NCBI GenBank assembly: GCA_003152955.1
Contig: PMBQ01000382.1
Coordinates: 1 to 10,370 of the forward strand
DNA from: Candidatus Bathyarchaeota archaeon
GTDB taxonomy: Archaea; Thermoproteota; Bathyarchaeia; 40CM-2-53-6; FEN-987
Direction: 5' to 3'
DNA length: 10,370 bases
Shown: piece after piece, positions 2,589 through 10,298 of the stretch
How positions within the stretch are numbered: the stretch's first letter is position 1
Layout: each line of letters opens with the position of its first letter
Translations under genes and position numbers: made by a program
Notes under the pieces: generated by a model
What the model saw: the letters and a program-made list of their open reading frames with translations, nothing else
What the model was told of the DNA's origin: nothing
Databases searched by the model: none

Positions 2589-3509
2589 GTGGAGTTCGTC
2601 GGCAGAGACATTGTCTCAATAAGGGATTTCTCAAGAGAAGAAATTGATTACGTTCTGGAGATGACTGATGTCGTCGAACCCATGGCGAAGAAGGGTTCGC
2701 ATTTACTTGACGGGAAAATTATGGCAACTCTGTTCTTTGAGCCCAGTACGCGAACTCGCCTGAGCTTCGAGTCAGCTATGTATCGCATGGGCGGTAAGTG
2801 TCTAGGCTTCGCTGAACCTAAGGCCGCTTCAGTGGAGAAGGGAGAGAATCTGGCGGATACTGTGAGAGTAGTTGAGAGCTATGCAGATGTTCTCGTGGAT
2901 CGACATCCGCTTGAGGGTGCAGCGCGTCTGGCTGCCGAATTTGCTTCTGTGCCAGTGATGAATGGGGGGACTGGCGCAGAGGAGCATCCGACCCAAGCTC
3001 TTCTTGATCTCTATACAATACGAAAGGAACTTGGCAAGATAGATGGTTTGAACGTCGTTATGGCTGGTGATCTACGTTACGGACGAACAGTCCACTCCCT
3101 AGCTTACGCGCTATCCCTCTATGATGTCACTCTGCACTTAGTATCACCATCGTCGTTGAGACTGAGGAAGGAGGTCTTGGAAGAGGTAGGTGAGCGCATC
3201 AAAGTGCATGAACTTGAAGATCTTTCAAAAGCTATTCCTGAAGCTGATGTTATCTACATGACCCGAATCCAAAAAGAGCGATTCGGCTCACTCGAGGATT
3301 ATGAGAAGGTTCGTGGCTCGTATCGGCTCTCTGAGGACGACCTGATCAGTGCAAAGCCGGGTATGATAGTTATGCATCCTTTGCCGAGAGTTGACGAGAT
3401 TGCTTTCGGCGTTGACAATACTCCTCATGCGAAGTACTTCAAGCAGGTATGGTACGGGCTCTTGGTGAGAATGAGTCTGATCGGGCTAGTTCTGGGCGTT
3501 TTAGATTAG
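2589..3509 (+). CDS. pyrB: Aspartate carbamoyltransferase catalytic chain
   Basis: A full-length 306-residue ATCase catalytic chain, which condenses carbamoyl phosphate and L-aspartate to N-carbamoyl-L-aspartate in pyrimidine synthesis. Visible motifs: FFEPSTRTRLSFE (49-61; STRTR binds carbamoyl phosphate), the 80s loop ASVEKGE with Ser81 and Lys84, HPLEGAARLA (106-115), HPTQ (133-136), DLRYGRTVHSL (161-171, aspartate-domain entry) and HPLPR (263-267). All are intact. The start is GTG at 2589-2591: an in-frame TGA at 2559-2561 and the absence of ATG/GTG/TTG between leave it as the only choice; an out-of-frame ATG overlaps it at 2587. It diverges from pyrI across 73 bp, so catalytic and regulatory chains are probably co-regulated from the shared spacer. 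Confidence 0.98.
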   Translation: MEFVGRDIVSIRDFSREEIDYVLEMTDVVEPMAKKGSHLLDGKIMATLFFEPSTRTRLSFESAMYRMGGKCLGFAEPKAASVEKGENLADTVRVVESYADVLVDRHPLEGAARLAAEFASVPVMNGGTGAEEHPTQALLDLYTIRKELGKIDGLNVVMAGDLRYGRTVHSLAYALSLYDVTLHLVSPSSLRLRKEVLEEVGERIKVHELEDLSKAIPEADVIYMTRIQKERFGSLEDYEKVRGSYRLSEDDLISAKPGMIVMHPLPRVDEIAFGVDNTPHAKYFKQVWYGLLVRMSLIGLVLGVLD

Positions 3510-4865: not shown

Positions 4866-7256
4866 TCAAGAGTGAACAGTTTCTTCTTTTCGGATTTCCA
4901 CTGAAGAGCCTGGAATCGTAGCCCGATTTTCGCTCCGCAATTCATGCAACGAGTATGCGATGCGGTCATTCACAGTCCTTTTCTTCGCTTCAGGCCAGAG
5001 GTTGAACGGCAGGAGGCCGTAGGACGATCTGCCCAGATACGTCAGTCTGTCAGAGCCACATCTGCTGCATTTCGGGGCTATTCCTGGTTCGGTTTGGTTG
5101 CACGCGCCGCAAGCCGAATAGTTCCCAGTATACGTCATGAATTTGCAATGGGCGTCGATCGCAATTCCGGTCCACTTCAATAGAGCAGCTTCTTGCACGA
5201 CCCCCGGAGAGACACAGATTACATTCAAATGTCCGCCGGGCGTTGCCGATTGGAATCTGGATTCTATCAAGAGCCTGGTCTCAATGGGCGTTTTTGTCGT
5301 CAAGGGGATGGTCGGTATGTCTGTGTAGTGTAATGATCCTCTTGACCCATCCGCAACAACGACTGCCCTGCCGTATTGCTCCACATCCAATTCGGCAAGC
5401 CTTCCCACAGCTTCGTCTCCGTGCCTTTGAGATATGCTGATCCGCATCTCAGTTTCTTCCGATGCTGATTTGGCGAACTTCGATAGCTCCGCCAAGAGCT
5501 TCAAACCAAATTCGAGGCTCGCTTTGTCTCGTTCCATCCTCTGCCCCGTGTGAGCTTCAACCGCTTCATGCAATCCAACAAATGACAAATTGTATGAAGC
5601 GTTTTTTTCATAGAAATACGGCGCCGGGCCTATCTCACCGATCAGGAGCGGCAGGAGAGGTTGCTTCAGTCTCTCGCCGACAAACTTTCTTTTCACTTTG
5701 AAACCTTCGACGGCTAGGAGCGTCGATTCCTTGAGAAGTGCGAACAATTTGTCATCACTTTTCTTCGCTTCATAAGATAGTCGGGGGAGATTCAGGAAAA
5801 TGGTGTCCATGCTGCCTGTCCTGATACAATCTGCGTCCCAGTGTCCAGTCCAATCATCACTCAACCTCAGCCCCGTGGCTGAGTAGCTGCACCTCTCTTG
5901 GTCTCCAGCAAGTACGAAGTAGGGTACACTCCTTGTTGCCGCAAGCTCATGTGCCTTCTCCGCAATCTTCCTGGTGTGCTCATCGATCAGAGTCTTCCGA
6001 TCCAGTCTTACAAGGAGGTGGGGTAGAAGGGGCGGTCTAGATTCTGACATCATGCGAAAAGCCTCCAAGGTCGCCTCAGCCAACCTCAAGGCCTCGGTCC
6101 GAAAATCTCCGTAATGCCCTTGGTTTTTCCCTCTCGGGCCTACCGCATCATCCTTGGATAGATACTCAGGGATCTCTAGGTCGATAGCTATCGAAACGCC
6201 AGCCTGAGGGTTGTCTGAAGCGATGTCGCGACGCATTGCTGTCAAAAAGTAGAACAGAGCGTTGGTAATGTCTCCAACAGATCGTCCGTGAACATAGGGA
6301 GCGAGGACAGTGTTGAAGAACTCGGCCGTCTGTTCTCCAGAGATCTCGCCTGAACCTATGTCCAACGCGTGGCGTATTAGCGCCAATGCCCCCTCAAACG
6401 TTTCTGGGGGAACCATTCCGGGAAGGCCGTTTTTTAGAAAGTAGCGAAGGTCATGAATGACCTCATTCGGCTTGAGTATCCAATTCTCAAGGTTTGCAAT
6501 GTGAATTGATCCTGAGAGATGAGCATCAGCGAGTTTGTGCGGGAGACAGTTAAGGAGAACGTATTCGGATAGAACAGATTTCGCAGAGTACCGATGAACA
6601 TAATCTGCGCTGAGTTGCCTTTCGCCAGCATCTCTTATCAGTTGTGCAACGTCATGGACGGGCATACCGAGGCGTGTCAGTTTGTGGCGATATTCCTCCA
6701 GCTTTTTCTCAATGAGTATTGCATTCACGAACTCACGTATCAGCGGTGCAGTTAGGTAGACCGTCTTGAGGCGGACGAGTCGGTCTTCGGCTTCTGCAGC
6801 TATTTCGTCCGCAATCTCTTGTGGAACCCCGGCTTCAACAACAAGGGACTTTGCGATCTTGTTACGGTGAAACTCTTCTATCGCGAGCCTAGAGGTTCTG
6901 ACGTAGAGTTTTCCGCGTTTTACATTGACATACTCGTCCATGTCCCTCGCGAAGGACACGATCATTAGACCGAGCTCGGTAACTTCATACTTCTTCGTCT
7001 TCTTGTCGAGCGCAACCAAGCCCGCATCGGTGAGACTTCTGAGATGATAGACGAATTTTCCAGCATCTCGAACAGGGTCCAGTTTCAATTGGAACATTAT
7101 TTCGGTGTACTGGAGTGATCCTTTCGTTGAGAGTAGTCGTAAAATTTGTAGTCGCACTGGAGCTGATGCGGCGTCAAAGATGGTGGCTCCGATTCTCTCC
7201 GATGAACGTAGCAATAGATTACCGCCTAGAAGCTGGATTACAGACTCCATAAGCAT
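4866..7256 (-). CDS. Winged-helix/ATP-cone/NrdD-like fusion, apparently catalytically inactive
   Basis: A 796-residue protein in three parts. Residues about 27-105 are an ArsR-like winged helix (SAPVRLQILRLL, then FVYHLRSLTDAGLV and KYEVTELGLMIV). Residues about 108-200 look like an ATP-cone (VNVKRGKLYVRTSRLAIEEF onward), the domain that senses ATP/dATP in ribonucleotide reductases and NrdR. The rest follows class III anaerobic ribonucleotide reductase (NrdD): IHIANLENW (251-259), NLPRLSY (489-495), a zinc site with Cys716, 719, 730 and 733, and a C-terminal tail. The radical motif, normally RVxGY, is RSSYG (743-747), so the radical glycine position is Tyr746. Around 460-461 the Cys preceding the RLRL-like strand appears as Ala/Thr, and the first conserved Cys aligns with Val266. 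These comparisons are from memory. The likely role is a nucleotide-responsive regulator rather than a reductase. No NrdG activase gene is nearby. Start: ATG 7256, or the second ATG at 7250; an AT-rich TTTTTTAAA (7266-7274, minus strand) lies just upstream. Confidence 0.85.
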   Translation of the reverse strand: MLMESVIQLLGGNLLLRSSERIGATIFDAASAPVRLQILRLLSTKGSLQYTEIMFQLKLDPVRDAGKFVYHLRSLTDAGLVALDKKTKKYEVTELGLMIVSFARDMDEYVNVKRGKLYVRTSRLAIEEFHRNKIAKSLVVEAGVPQEIADEIAAEAEDRLVRLKTVYLTAPLIREFVNAILIEKKLEEYRHKLTRLGMPVHDVAQLIRDAGERQLSADYVHRYSAKSVLSEYVLLNCLPHKLADAHLSGSIHIANLENWILKPNEVIHDLRYFLKNGLPGMVPPETFEGALALIRHALDIGSGEISGEQTAEFFNTVLAPYVHGRSVGDITNALFYFLTAMRRDIASDNPQAGVSIAIDLEIPEYLSKDDAVGPRGKNQGHYGDFRTEALRLAEATLEAFRMMSESRPPLLPHLLVRLDRKTLIDEHTRKIAEKAHELAATRSVPYFVLAGDQERCSYSATGLRLSDDWTGHWDADCIRTGSMDTIFLNLPRLSYEAKKSDDKLFALLKESTLLAVEGFKVKRKFVGERLKQPLLPLLIGEIGPAPYFYEKNASYNLSFVGLHEAVEAHTGQRMERDKASLEFGLKLLAELSKFAKSASEETEMRISISQRHGDEAVGRLAELDVEQYGRAVVVADGSRGSLHYTDIPTIPLTTKTPIETRLLIESRFQSATPGGHLNVICVSPGVVQEAALLKWTGIAIDAHCKFMTYTGNYSACGACNQTEPGIAPKCSRCGSDRLTYLGRSSYGLLPFNLWPEAKKRTVNDRIAYSLHELRSENRATIPGSSVEIRKEETVHS

Positions 7257-7344: not shown

Positions 7345-7542
7345 TTGAGCTCATCGTTAGTCCAGGCAATGATAGCTGATGTGAGCCCGATTGTCTGGCG
7401 CGAATCCGCTGTGGCACTGGGTTCGATTGGCGATGACGACATTATTCCTGAATTGGAAAAAGCGATTGGGGACAGGGATGAAGATGTTAGCAACTTGGCG
7501 TTGATTGCTTTCGAATATCTGACATATCTCAAGCGGAAGTGA
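7345..7542 (+). CDS. Short HEAT-repeat-like ORF, possibly a gene remnant
   Basis: A 65-residue ORF starting with TTG 7345; ATG 7369 would leave 57 residues. The segment VWRESAVALGSIGDDDIIPELEKAIGDRDEDVSNLALIAFEYL fits the HEAT/PBS-lyase-like repeat consensus (R..A..aLg.igd....p.L..ai.D.d..V...A..al), giving about one and a half helical hairpins. HEAT repeats are protein-binding scaffolds and normally occur in longer arrays, so this is either a very small adaptor or the surviving end of a larger gene. The frame stays open upstream to a TAA at 7297-7299, without ATG or GTG, and the upstream residues AIENPHLSSSLVQAM also look compatible with a preceding helix. It diverges from the NrdD-like gene. 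Coding is plausible from the consensus match only. Confidence 0.5.
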   Translation: MSSSLVQAMIADVSPIVWRESAVALGSIGDDDIIPELEKAIGDRDEDVSNLALIAFEYLTYLKRK

Positions 7543-7620: not shown

Positions 7621-7659
7621 TCTTGATCTGGACTAAGGGGCCTAGGGGCGGTGGTCCAG

Positions 7660-7687
7660 GCCGCGAGTCAACCCATCGTGGGGACAA
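7660..7687 (+). other. tRNA-Pro intron 1, D-loop position 15/16, 28 nt
   Basis: Central helix GTCC (7654-7657, the D-stem 5' strand) pairs with GGAC (7682-7685). The 5' bulge is AG|G (7658-7660) and the 3' bulge AA|C (7686-7688). The inner helix CCGCGA (7661-7666) pairs with TCGTGG (7676-7681) with one G-U pair and a 9-nt loop. The outer helix is weak. Excision yields a standard 11-nt D-loop. Confidence 0.8.
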
Positions 7688-7700
7688 CATGGTCTAAGAT

Positions 7701-7720
7701 AGCGAGGATCTCGCCTTCAA
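7701..7720 (+). other. tRNA-Pro intron 2, position 25/26, 20 nt
   Basis: The inner helix GCGAG (7702-7706) pairs with CTCGC (7710-7714) around loop GAT. The central helix TAAG (7695-7698) faces CTTC (7715-7718) with three pairs and one T-C mismatch. The 5' bulge is AT|A (7699-7701) and the 3' bulge AA|A (7719-7721). Exact ends could shift by one base because A flanks both sides. Confidence 0.7.
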
Positions 7721-7732
7721 ACCGGTCTCGGG

Positions 7733-7755
7733 ACCACAAAAGCGCACGGCGAGCA
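7733..7755 (+). other. tRNA-Pro intron 3, canonical position 37/38, 23 nt
   Basis: The central helix CTCG (7727-7730, anticodon loop) pairs perfectly with CGAG (7750-7753). The 5' bulge is GG|A (7731-7733), the 3' bulge CA|C (7754-7756), and the outer helix is the anticodon stem. The inner helix is short (CC 7734-7735 with GG 7748-7749). Confidence 0.85.
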
Positions 7756-7777
7756 CACCGGTGATCGAGGGTTCAAA

Positions 7778-7801
7778 ATGGTCTCTTGGAGATCATGATA
7801 A
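7778..7801 (+). other. tRNA-Pro intron 4, T-loop position 59/60, 24 nt
   Basis: The inner hairpin TGGTCTC (7779-7785) pairs with GAGATCA (7789-7795) in 7 bp with one G-U pair and loop TTG. The central helix TTCA (7772-7775) faces TGAT (7796-7799) with three pairs and one T-T mismatch. Bulges are AA|A (7776-7778) and AA|T (7800-7802). Position matches the tRNA-Gln intron. Confidence 0.85.
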
Positions 7802-7866
7802 TCCCTCCCGCCCCACCACACTTGCCATTTGCCTAACGAATCCGAAGCTGACAAGATGCTGCAATC

Positions 7867-8973
7867 TCACACCTGCGAAACCTTCCTGTACACTTTTTCG
7901 ATCTCATCAGTCATATTGCGCCAAGTATGCTTGAGCGCATAGTCACGCGCTTTGGTCTTGTATTCTTCCGCATGACTAACTATCTTTGTCATGGTCTTCG
8001 CCAAGTCTTCCACGTTCTGTGACTCGTAGACTGCTCCTGCGGAAGATTCGCTTATGATTTCGGGGTATGAACCGACCGAAGGACCTACAACAGGTTTTCC
8101 ACATGCCATTGCTTCGAGAACCGGTAGCCCAAACGATTCCCAAACGCTCGCGGAAACATAAGCATCGCACGATGCGTAGTAGAGCGGAAGCTCTCGCCGT
8201 GACACCCAAGACGTAACTATCTCAGTATTTCTCTCTAGATCAAGTCTTCTGATTTGATCTCGAAGCTCATAAAACCGCGGACCTGTACCTATGACTCTTA
8301 GAAATGCGTCCGGGTTCTCCTTCCGCACTGTAGCAATTGCGTCAAGGAGCCGGTTGATTGCCTTCTTCTTGACAAGGGCTCCCACGAACAGGAAAGATGG
8401 TGTGCCTCTACGGTACTTGGCAGGTAACTCTGTAGTAAAACTCTCAGTGTCAACCCCTGGATAGATCACATCAATCTCCGAGCGTACGTTGAATAATTCC
8501 TGTAGTTCTCTCTTGGCGAACTGTGACACTGTTATGATGGCAGCTGCCTTTGACGCATGCCTTCGGATCTGTCTGGCTTCGTACATGACCTTTGCATTCT
8601 CTTCAAATCGAGGGTTTGCCCCGTGATAATGAAGGATCACCCCACCATTCTCGAAGGGCAGTTTCCTCATTATGAGCGAGCCTTGGTGATGATGAATTAT
8701 GTCTCCCTTGATGTTTGACTGCCAATCTTGTGATAGAGCGAGTCCCCCGAATAATCTGGACAACGTTACATGTTTGGTAAAATAGAAGACCTTGCACCCC
8801 ACCGGGATGTCCGTCAAAACATATTTCTGTGCAAGCACCCCGACTGATACTGAGTAATTCTTTGCCACAAGATTAGAACAGAGATTCTTCACAATGTTGC
8901 CGATGCCGGATTCCTCGAAAAATCCCACCGTGATTGTTACTGACTTCAATCTCAACAGCCTGTAATAACACAA
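7867..8973 (-). CDS. GT4-family glycosyltransferase (GT-B fold)
   Basis: A 368-residue GT-B enzyme. The N-terminal Rossmann domain starts at about residue 10 (SVTITVGFFEESGIGNIVKNL), with the GIG loop near the acceptor site. AAIITVSQFAKREL (144-157) and IDVIYPGVD (167-175) are classic GT4 linker segments, FLFVGALVKKKAI (194-206) opens the C-terminal nucleotide-sugar domain, and ESFGLPVLEAMACGKPVV (279-296) holds the retaining-enzyme E-x7-E motif with Glu279 and Glu287. No membrane segment is visible, so it is probably a cytosolic or membrane-peripheral transferase acting on lipid-linked or surface glycans; sugar and acceptor cannot be read. The longest start is TTG 8971-8973 (no ATG or GTG upstream before an in-frame stop at 9019-9021); TTG 8947-8949 directly before the first strand is equally possible. 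It diverges from a second GT4 gene and ends 48 bp after tRNA-Pro on the opposite strand. Confidence 0.93.
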   Translation of the reverse strand: MCYYRLLRLKSVTITVGFFEESGIGNIVKNLCSNLVAKNYSVSVGVLAQKYVLTDIPVGCKVFYFTKHVTLSRLFGGLALSQDWQSNIKGDIIHHHQGSLIMRKLPFENGGVILHYHGANPRFEENAKVMYEARQIRRHASKAAAIITVSQFAKRELQELFNVRSEIDVIYPGVDTESFTTELPAKYRRGTPSFLFVGALVKKKAINRLLDAIATVRKENPDAFLRVIGTGPRFYELRDQIRRLDLERNTEIVTSWVSRRELPLYYASCDAYVSASVWESFGLPVLEAMACGKPVVGPSVGSYPEIISESSAGAVYESQNVEDLAKTMTKIVSHAEEYKTKARDYALKHTWRNMTDEIEKVYRKVSQV

Positions 8974-9128: not shown

Positions 9129-10298
9129 ATGAGCACTGAAAGCAATTTTCTCATAGGTCGTCGTATGAGAGCTGCGATTTATTGTTCACAAATGCTTCCC
9201 ATGGGCGGCAGCGAAAGAGTAGTGCTCGATGCGATTGAGGCACTCGTGCGTCTCGGTTGGGACGTAGACCTTTATGTGGAGACCAATTTCAACCCGTCTG
9301 ATCTTGTTGCTGGTTTTGGGAGTCCTGCAAGCCTTCGCTGTCGTGTGCATGTGAGGAAGCTGCCGCCAGGCTTCAGGTATCCTAGAGCTGCCAGTAGCCG
9401 AATTCACCTAGACTGGGCTTGGAGTCTTCTCGAAAAGCGTGTCGGAGAATGCGACGTTTTCATTGACACCGTCCCGTTTATCAATAGTCACTTTTCGCCA
9501 TACTTGCGAATTCCTGACGCCGTATATTGGAACCTGCTACCGAGCGACCTCTCATGGATGACAAATGAGCGGAATATTCTGAAAAGGCTCTATCTCGTTC
9601 CACTGCGTGTTCTTGCCCGCAGCTGTGCTCAGAGATGGAGAAGGATACAAGTACACATCGCCAACAGCGAATATACCGCGAAGGGCATCGTTGAACGTCT
9701 TTCAGTAGATTTGCACCCCATCGTCATCTACCCCCCAGTTGACCTGGAACGATGGCACGCAAGATCTGGCTCTAATGCCAGAAGCGGGGTCGTAACCTTG
9801 GCGCGATTTGAAAAATGGAAGAGACATGATCTACAATTAGCAGTCGCTCGTAAATTGAAAGCTCCGTTTAGAATGATTGGTCGCGCCCTAAGAGATGACG
9901 AAGTAACTCTTCTCTCGCATCTAAGAGCGGCGGCTGTAAACACGCCAGTTGAGTTCCACGTAAACGTCTCGCAAGAGCAAGCGAGGAGAATCCTTACGAC
10001 TAGCAAAGTGTTCCTGCATACCGCCGATGCAGAACCGTTCGGAATCTCAACGGTAGAAGCAATAGCCGCAGGCTGCCTCCCTATTGTAAGAAACAACGGA
10101 GGCACACCAGAGATTGTGCCTTTTCGAGAACTTCGTTTCGATACGATTATCGAAGCTGAAGAGAAAATACGCGCTGCACTTGAAGGGGAGTACGACTACC
10201 TTGCCCATCAACTCCAGGATCACATACGAAGATTCGACAGGAAGGAATTCCAAAAAAGGTTCGCAGATTGCCTTTTGACTGCCTCAAGTAGCCAGTAA
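9129..10298 (+). CDS. GT4-family glycosyltransferase, ALG11-like C-terminus
   Basis: A 389-residue GT-B protein, or 377 residues if it starts at ATG 9165. The first strand and glycine loop are MRAAIYCSQMLPMGGSERVV (13-32); VHIANSEYTAKGIVERL (175-191) and IVIYPPVDLERW (198-209) are the linker, GVVTLARFEKWKRHDL (220-235) starts the donor domain, and AEPFGISTVEAIAAGCLPIV (301-320) gives E-x7-E with Glu302 and Glu310. The following RNNGGTPEIV resembles the ALG11-type branch (GDP-mannose-dependent alpha-1,2-mannosyltransferases acting on dolichol-linked glycans), so a role in N-glycan or glycolipid assembly is a reasonable inference, without proof of sugar or linkage. I prefer ATG 9165 because it sits exactly before the Rossmann strand and suits the TATA-like box; the listed start keeps the longest frame. 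It is a different subfamily from the divergent GT4 gene, sharing only family motifs. TAA at 10296-10298. Confidence 0.92.
   Translation: MSTESNFLIGRRMRAAIYCSQMLPMGGSERVVLDAIEALVRLGWDVDLYVETNFNPSDLVAGFGSPASLRCRVHVRKLPPGFRYPRAASSRIHLDWAWSLLEKRVGECDVFIDTVPFINSHFSPYLRIPDAVYWNLLPSDLSWMTNERNILKRLYLVPLRVLARSCAQRWRRIQVHIANSEYTAKGIVERLSVDLHPIVIYPPVDLERWHARSGSNARSGVVTLARFEKWKRHDLQLAVARKLKAPFRMIGRALRDDEVTLLSHLRAAAVNTPVEFHVNVSQEQARRILTTSKVFLHTADAEPFGISTVEAIAAGCLPIVRNNGGTPEIVPFRELRFDTIIEAEEKIRAALEGEYDYLAHQLQDHIRRFDRKEFQKRFADCLLTASSSQ

Follow-up and report, generated by a model that had tools for sequence, protein, structure and literature searches.

Excerpts of the published literature describe archaeal tRNA genes as having up to three introns (PMC8450103), as many as three introns (PMC3293823), or two or three introns per gene (PMC6379350). 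The tRNA-Pro(UGG) gene of Pyrobaculum islandicum is given as an example of up to three introns in the excerpted parts of PMC4390854 and PMC4090602. The list of intron sites excerpted from PMC4090602 includes sites 25/26 and 59/60; site 15/16 is absent from this list, which ends in 'etc.'. A literature search, judged by excerpts of main texts and by titles and abstracts, yielded no report of a tRNA gene with four introns; the papers it listed dealt with phage group II introns and plant organelle genomes. The DNA analysed here, a stretch of 10,370 nucleotides from a Bathyarchaeota archaeon (referred to as the window), contains a tRNA-Pro(CGG) gene of 174 nt at positions 7645-7818 of the plus strand, with introns at the four sites 15/16, 25/26, 37/38 and 59/60. 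With four introns in the window and in archaeon RBG_16_50_20, the stated maximum of three per gene is exceeded; this maximum is a description, not a mechanistic criterion. The original prediction, which was made from the sequence alone, had taken three introns as the upper limit and placed the gene at or beyond it, and this agrees with the excerpts of PMC8450103, PMC3293823, PMC4390854 and PMC6379350.

The gene is composed of five exons of 15, 13, 12, 22 and 17 nt and four introns of 28, 20, 23 and 24 nt (95 nt in sum), all on the plus strand. Exon 1 (7645..7659, tRNA positions 1-15) provides the 5' strands of the acceptor and D stems together with A14 and G15, and is followed at site 15/16 by intron 1 (7660..7687), which has an inner helix of 6 bp and all four central pairs (GTCC/GGAC). 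Exon 2 (7688..7700, positions 16-25) ends at site 25/26, where intron 2 (7701..7720) has an inner helix of 5 bp and three of the four central pairs. The anticodon CGG (7729-7731) is part of exon 3 (7721..7732, positions 26-37), which is separated from exon 4 (7756..7777, positions 38-59) by intron 3 (7733..7755) at the canonical site 37/38. Here all four central pairs are present, the anticodon stem serves as the outer helix and the inner helix has 2 bp. Intron 4 (7778..7801, site 59/60) has an inner helix of 7 bp, three of the four central pairs and the T stem as outer helix, and exon 5 (7802..7818, positions 60-76) supplies the 3' strands of the T and acceptor stems, A73 and an encoded CCA. 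Exons 1, 3, 4 and 5 are identical in RBG_16_50_20, and exon 2 differs from its counterpart there by a single A/T exchange at position 17. The order of the five exons is colinear and all of them lie within 174 nt, which is not the arrangement of a split or permuted tRNA gene.

The spliced RNA measures 79 nt including the encoded CCA; the mature length of 76 nt that was originally predicted is right as the length without CCA. When the exons are joined, a cloverleaf forms in which the acceptor, anticodon and T stems are fully paired, whereas the D stem contains one mismatch (C13-A22) and one wobble pair (G10-U25). The predicted arms do form, with these two irregularities in the D stem, and the loop bases, compared by eye with what we take to be the invariant positions, are present. 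ARAGORN calls the joined exons of both the window and RBG_16_50_20 as tRNA-Pro(cgg), a cloverleaf with clear identity. The unspliced gene of 174 nt was not called as a tRNA by ARAGORN or by Rfam at the gathering score, and the whole window also gave no call. Because the joined exons do get called, the missed call on the unspliced gene is a limit of the programs. Since ARAGORN and Rfam (at the gathering score) miss the gene, counts of many-intron genes may be too low, and a genome may seem to lack a tRNA.

In the window as well as in RBG_16_50_20, a bulge-helix-bulge or relaxed motif is found at four of four intron boundaries. The register is the same at all four sites, with bulges of 3 nt, a centre of four positions and a cut after the second bulge base. 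This is the register that had been predicted, together with a central helix at every site; however, one central pair is missing in intron 4 of both genomes and in intron 2 of the window. An outer helix of at least 5 pairs was found for introns 3 and 4 only, and none is in register for introns 1 and 2, whose motifs are therefore relaxed ones. Even with these irregularities and the inner helix of 2 pairs in intron 3, the motifs are supported by shuffling. In 100,000 letter shuffles for each intron of the window, motifs that reach the observed score arose with frequencies of 7e-5, 3.9e-4, 8.4e-4 and 6e-4 for introns 1 to 4, and the corresponding values for RBG_16_50_20 are 6e-5, 4e-5, 1.0e-3 and 1.2e-4; as the test keeps intron ends that were found beforehand, these frequencies somewhat overstate the significance.

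The number of introns was also varied in end-to-end matches to the mature tRNA of a relative. With one to six introns and free placement, the best scores were 26, 80, 116, 132, 134 and 136, so that the gain is nearly flat beyond four introns, and the best of 60 interior shuffles at four introns reached a score of 96. As the motif shuffles, the match-score curve and the presence of the same gene in a second genome demonstrate, the four-intron structure is not due to chance. One could instead assume a gene with three introns and a variant fold, given the central pairs missing in introns 2 and 4, the short inner helix of intron 3, and the fact that ARAGORN, after removal of three introns, called a tRNA for three of the four combinations. 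However, two of these three calls are Glu and Ala, and the third, a Pro(cgg) obtained with introns 2 to 4 removed, adds a further intron of 30 nt. In addition, going from three to four introns lifts the match score from 116 to 132, after which it is nearly flat, and every intron site is empty in some orthologue. We regard a three-intron gene as hardly credible, and a better model with fewer introns than the four predicted was not found.

The gene of archaeon RBG_16_50_20 (genome G001) is located at L001, the one locus that a scan of genome contigs with the neighbouring NRDD protein yielded (80% identity). This tRNA gene has the same four introns and is 88.6% identical to that of the window over 175 columns. 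Of the 79 exon columns 1 differs between the two genes, compared with 19 of the 96 columns in introns (3, 4, 7 and 5 in introns 1 to 4; Fisher p 6e-5). Since the two assemblies differ mainly in the introns, an assembly error is very unlikely and the exons have evidently been kept. The predicted tRNA-Pro(CGG) gene with four introns at 7645..7818 was thus borne out by the call on the joined exons, by the same gene in RBG_16_50_20 and by empty sites in relatives, and its four intron positions and intron total of 95 nt were right as well. The window's archaeon is a relative of archaeon RBG_16_50_20. The excerpted part of PMC9802188 assigns a GTDB family with the name RBG-16-50-20 to the class Bathyarchaeia, and from the name we infer that this is the family of RBG_16_50_20.

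The genome of RBG_16_50_20 is rich in tRNA introns: eight genes that score above the Rfam tRNA cut-off are 73 to 158 nt long, and genes that are anchored by their T arm and have a fully paired acceptor reach 155 and 158 nt (these are lengths only, without decoding of the introns). Other tRNA loci of this genome (L249, L250, L252, L253, L254 and L260) measure about 104 to 158 nt, and these long genes probably carry introns. A match of 84% in the same genome (C95, L047) contained no tRNA by eye and was rejected. L211 (C4 of this genome, about 3475-3505) and L221 (G015, C32, about 31923-31950) are 3' fragments of tRNAs that extend from the T loop to CCA, with no evident 5' half nearby. As such T-arm fragments they were set aside as candidates for other proline genes, and most other loci fetched alongside them are a different tRNA. 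Either fragment might mark the attachment site of an integrated element or belong to a split or many-intron tRNA.

In the window, the tRNA gene is flanked by the gene for NRDD, an anaerobic ribonucleotide reductase with an N-terminal winged helix (4866..7256, minus strand; Pfam PF13597), which is near the tRNA in relatives as well, and on the other side by a glycosyltransferase gene (7867-8973, minus strand). In several families of the order, tRNA-Pro(CGG) and NRDD are divergent neighbours (e.g. G025 C3, G032 C45 and G030 C49), a conserved neighbourhood. Between NRDD and the tRNA, locus L001 of RBG_16_50_20 has a gene for a protein of 172 aa (9350-9868, minus strand) that is HEAT-repeat-like by eye. 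At the corresponding place, the window has only an ORF of 65 aa (7345-7542, plus strand), which resembles the C-terminal part of the 172-aa protein. The truncation of this neighbour in the window would suit a pseudogene, i.e. a decayed and unused tRNA in which insertions have accumulated. In such a gene, however, one would not expect the above contrast between 1/79 exon and 19/96 intron differences, nor the retention of the splice motifs in both the window and RBG_16_50_20. The genome of RBG_16_50_20 moreover has only one exact match to exon 1. A pseudogene is therefore very improbable, if slightly less so than a gene with three introns.

As a working gene, the locus would yield a transcript of 174 nt that would fold locally into four motifs of the bulge-helix-bulge type. 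Each motif would be cut after the second bulge base by a heterotetrameric endonuclease of broad specificity, and the exons would be ligated by RtcB to give the tRNA of 79 nt. Endonuclease and RtcB were searched for in the genome of RBG_16_50_20. RBG_16_50_20 encodes two endonuclease paralogues (both PF01974), one of which (186 aa) matches the alpha subunit of Aeropyrum pernix (3p1z, E 1e-39). This paralogue retains the His that was replaced in 3ajv (H133A), and its Lys39 aligns with Lys44 of the Crenarchaea-specific loop, as counted on the alignment. A Tyr and a Lys, presumably the rest of the catalytic triad, also align. The second paralogue lacks the His. H133A and Lys44 are described in the excerpted part of PMC6379350, where broad specificity is also tied to the Crenarchaea-specific loop and to enzymes of the (alpha beta)2 type. 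A pair of paralogues, one with the loop Lys and one without the His, predicts an (alpha beta)2 enzyme that is able to cut relaxed motifs; by this analogy, RBG_16_50_20 would have a two-subunit endonuclease of the crenarchaeal type with broad specificity. A gene for RtcB was found in this genome, but as 9 of 14 control genomes also have one, it is not a specific sign.

The hairpins of introns 2 and 4 are present both in the minimum-energy fold of the full-length precursor and in the consensus fold of the two sequences, whereas the motifs of introns 1 and 3 are missing from these folds. When one motif at a time is imposed on the full precursor, the cost is 2.9 to 4.3 kcal/mol for the window and 0.9 to 6.4 kcal/mol for RBG_16_50_20. 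Over the splicing states tested, the cost of a motif ranges from 0.6 to 6.4 kcal/mol, and in nascent pieces it reaches up to 7.3 kcal/mol. The motif of intron 3 becomes easier to form once introns 1 and 2 are gone (from 4.3 to 1.9 kcal/mol in the window and from 6.4 to 3.5 kcal/mol in RBG_16_50_20), and that of intron 1 once intron 3 is gone (from 2.9 to 0.6 and from 5.3 to 3.0 kcal/mol, respectively). In both genomes, introns 1 and 3 thus stand in each other's way, but no order of splicing is forced. In the two-sequence fold, no pair has changed on both sides and five have changed on one side (four of them in helices of the competing fold, the fifth in the inner helix of intron 4); without two-sided changes, covariation adds little. 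The folds and the cost of the motifs speak against a working gene; from the call on the joined exons, the same gene in RBG_16_50_20, the motif shuffles, the empty sites in relatives and the enzyme genes, we nevertheless consider it very likely that this is a working four-intron tRNA-Pro(CGG) gene, which would be transcribed, cleaved and ligated as outlined.

The exact pattern of exon 1 is present in 30 of the 38 genomes of the order. When one ambiguous base is allowed, 32 of the 256 genomes of the class contain it, all of them among these 38. In addition to the window, 34 orthologues were read by spliced alignment, with the splice motif included in the score. In G027, G030, G031 and G032, the script put the intron of the anticodon loop at 39/40, 44/45, 36/37 and 36/37, respectively, and these were read by eye as 37/38; in G023 and G024, its start was one base off and both were read by eye as 37/38 plus 59/60. 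The counts do not include G006, the remaining genome of the family, which has an empty site 15/16 and a run of N in the gene, nor G022, G036 and G037, which yielded no gene that was read.

Among the 35 genes read, all four introns occur together in the window and RBG_16_50_20 only. Of the 19 other genomes of the family, 18 have the 15/16 intron plus one D-arm intron, and G018 has 15/16 alone. The 14 genomes of other families mostly have 37/38 plus 59/60 (12 genomes); G028 has 15/16, 37/38 and 59/60, and G029 has 37/38 alone. The comparison with related genomes that had been proposed along with the prediction therefore reveals both presence and absence at every site. Site 15/16 is empty in G025, G026, G035 and others; among the 14 genomes of other families, it is empty in 13. 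The D-arm site (25/26 in the window) is empty in G018 (L025) and in all 14. Both 37/38 and 59/60 are empty in all 19 other family genomes read, and 59/60 also in G029. Among the 34 orthologues, every site is thus found empty at least once, which fixes the junctions of the window gene. The window gene is the union of two intron patterns that occur apart in its relatives. An intron-free gene was not found among the 35 read (window included). In the family's 18 genes with a D-arm intron, the script chose site 23/24 in 12 cases and 24/25, 22/23 and 21/22 in two cases each. At L020 to L038, the site of this second intron hence ranges from 21/22 to 24/25 within one family, compared with 25/26 in the window and RBG_16_50_20; such a shifting site may result from sliding or from repeated or separate gain.

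An RpoB tree was calculated from 34 members of the order, with 6 genomes of the class as outgroup; G013 is missing from it for want of an RpoB match. In this tree, RBG_16_50_20 is the sister of the 19 other family members included, with an SH-aLRT support of 91, which is not decisive, and the genomes that have 37/38 plus 59/60 lie outside the family. The fewest changes on the tree are 2, 2, 1 and 2 for 15/16, the D-arm intron, 37/38 and 59/60, counted over 32 of the 34 genomes read, as G013 and G033 are absent from the tree. As in RBG_16_50_20, the 59/60 intron of the early branch G023/G024 starts with ATGATC and contains GATCATGA close to its end, and this likeness supports an old 59/60 intron. 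The probable course of events is that the 37/38 and 59/60 introns are old in the order, that the 15/16 intron and the D-arm intron (25/26 here) were gained on the stem of the family, which would have led to four introns, and that the rest of the family later lost 37/38 and 59/60. Points against this history are the NrdD tree, in which the window and RBG_16_50_20 are not joined to the rest of the family (long branches were flagged), the lack of a fixed site for the D-arm intron, and the 15/16 intron of G028, outside the family.

The last of these points would also fit an older 15/16 intron with losses, and thus an ancestor of the order that had all four introns, with the two sides losing different pairs. 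This would be compatible with a branch joining RBG_16_50_20 to the family that is supported by 91 only and is absent from the NrdD tree. However, outside the family 15/16 is empty in 13 of 14 genomes and the D-arm site in 14 of 14, so that a four-intron ancestor requires repeated losses of both introns there, compared with the minimum of 2, 2, 1 and 2 changes on the RpoB tree. We consider such an ancestor rather unlikely and prefer the history with stepwise gain and loss. As RBG_16_50_20 stands beside the rest of the family in the RpoB tree (support 91), the gene then resembles an intermediate stage of intron replacement that has survived. Whether the replacement was a complete one, in which the new introns came in before the old ones left and the gene was never free of introns, is a bolder proposal that we put forward tentatively, as possible though doubtful. 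If it is true, some intron in tRNA-Pro(CGG) is under selection while its position is free to change; the intron might, for example, protect the gene from integrating elements or guide a modification. Since the lineage has many sequenced relatives in which each half of the pattern occurs by itself, the question of ancestral versus late tRNA introns can be tested at one orthologous gene.

Of the known systems, the tRNA-Pro(UGG) gene of Pyrobaculum islandicum, with introns at 25/26, 37/38 and 56/57 according to the excerpt of PMC4090602, is similar in that it is a proline gene with the canonical and two non-canonical introns, and 25/26 is common to both genes. In contrast to the gene described here, it has three introns, another anticodon, 56/57 instead of 59/60 and no 15/16, and it belongs to another lineage. 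Three-intron tRNAs of the Crenarchaeota, such as the tRNA-Glu(UUC) of Pyrobaculum calidifontis, likewise have several small introns per gene, but their number is three, and a figure legend in the excerpted part of PMC4390854 speaks of up to three. In the Asgard archaea Atabeyarchaeia and Freyarchaeia from wetland soil, more than half of the tRNA genes contain more than one intron, frequently at a non-canonical site (PMC11291895); these are a different archaeal group, and the figure in the excerpt of that study is a share of genes. The gene of the window is real and conserved, and by the maximum of three stated in these excerpts it has a record intron count for a known kind of gene. As far as we know, the number of introns in one tRNA gene is thereby raised from three to four.
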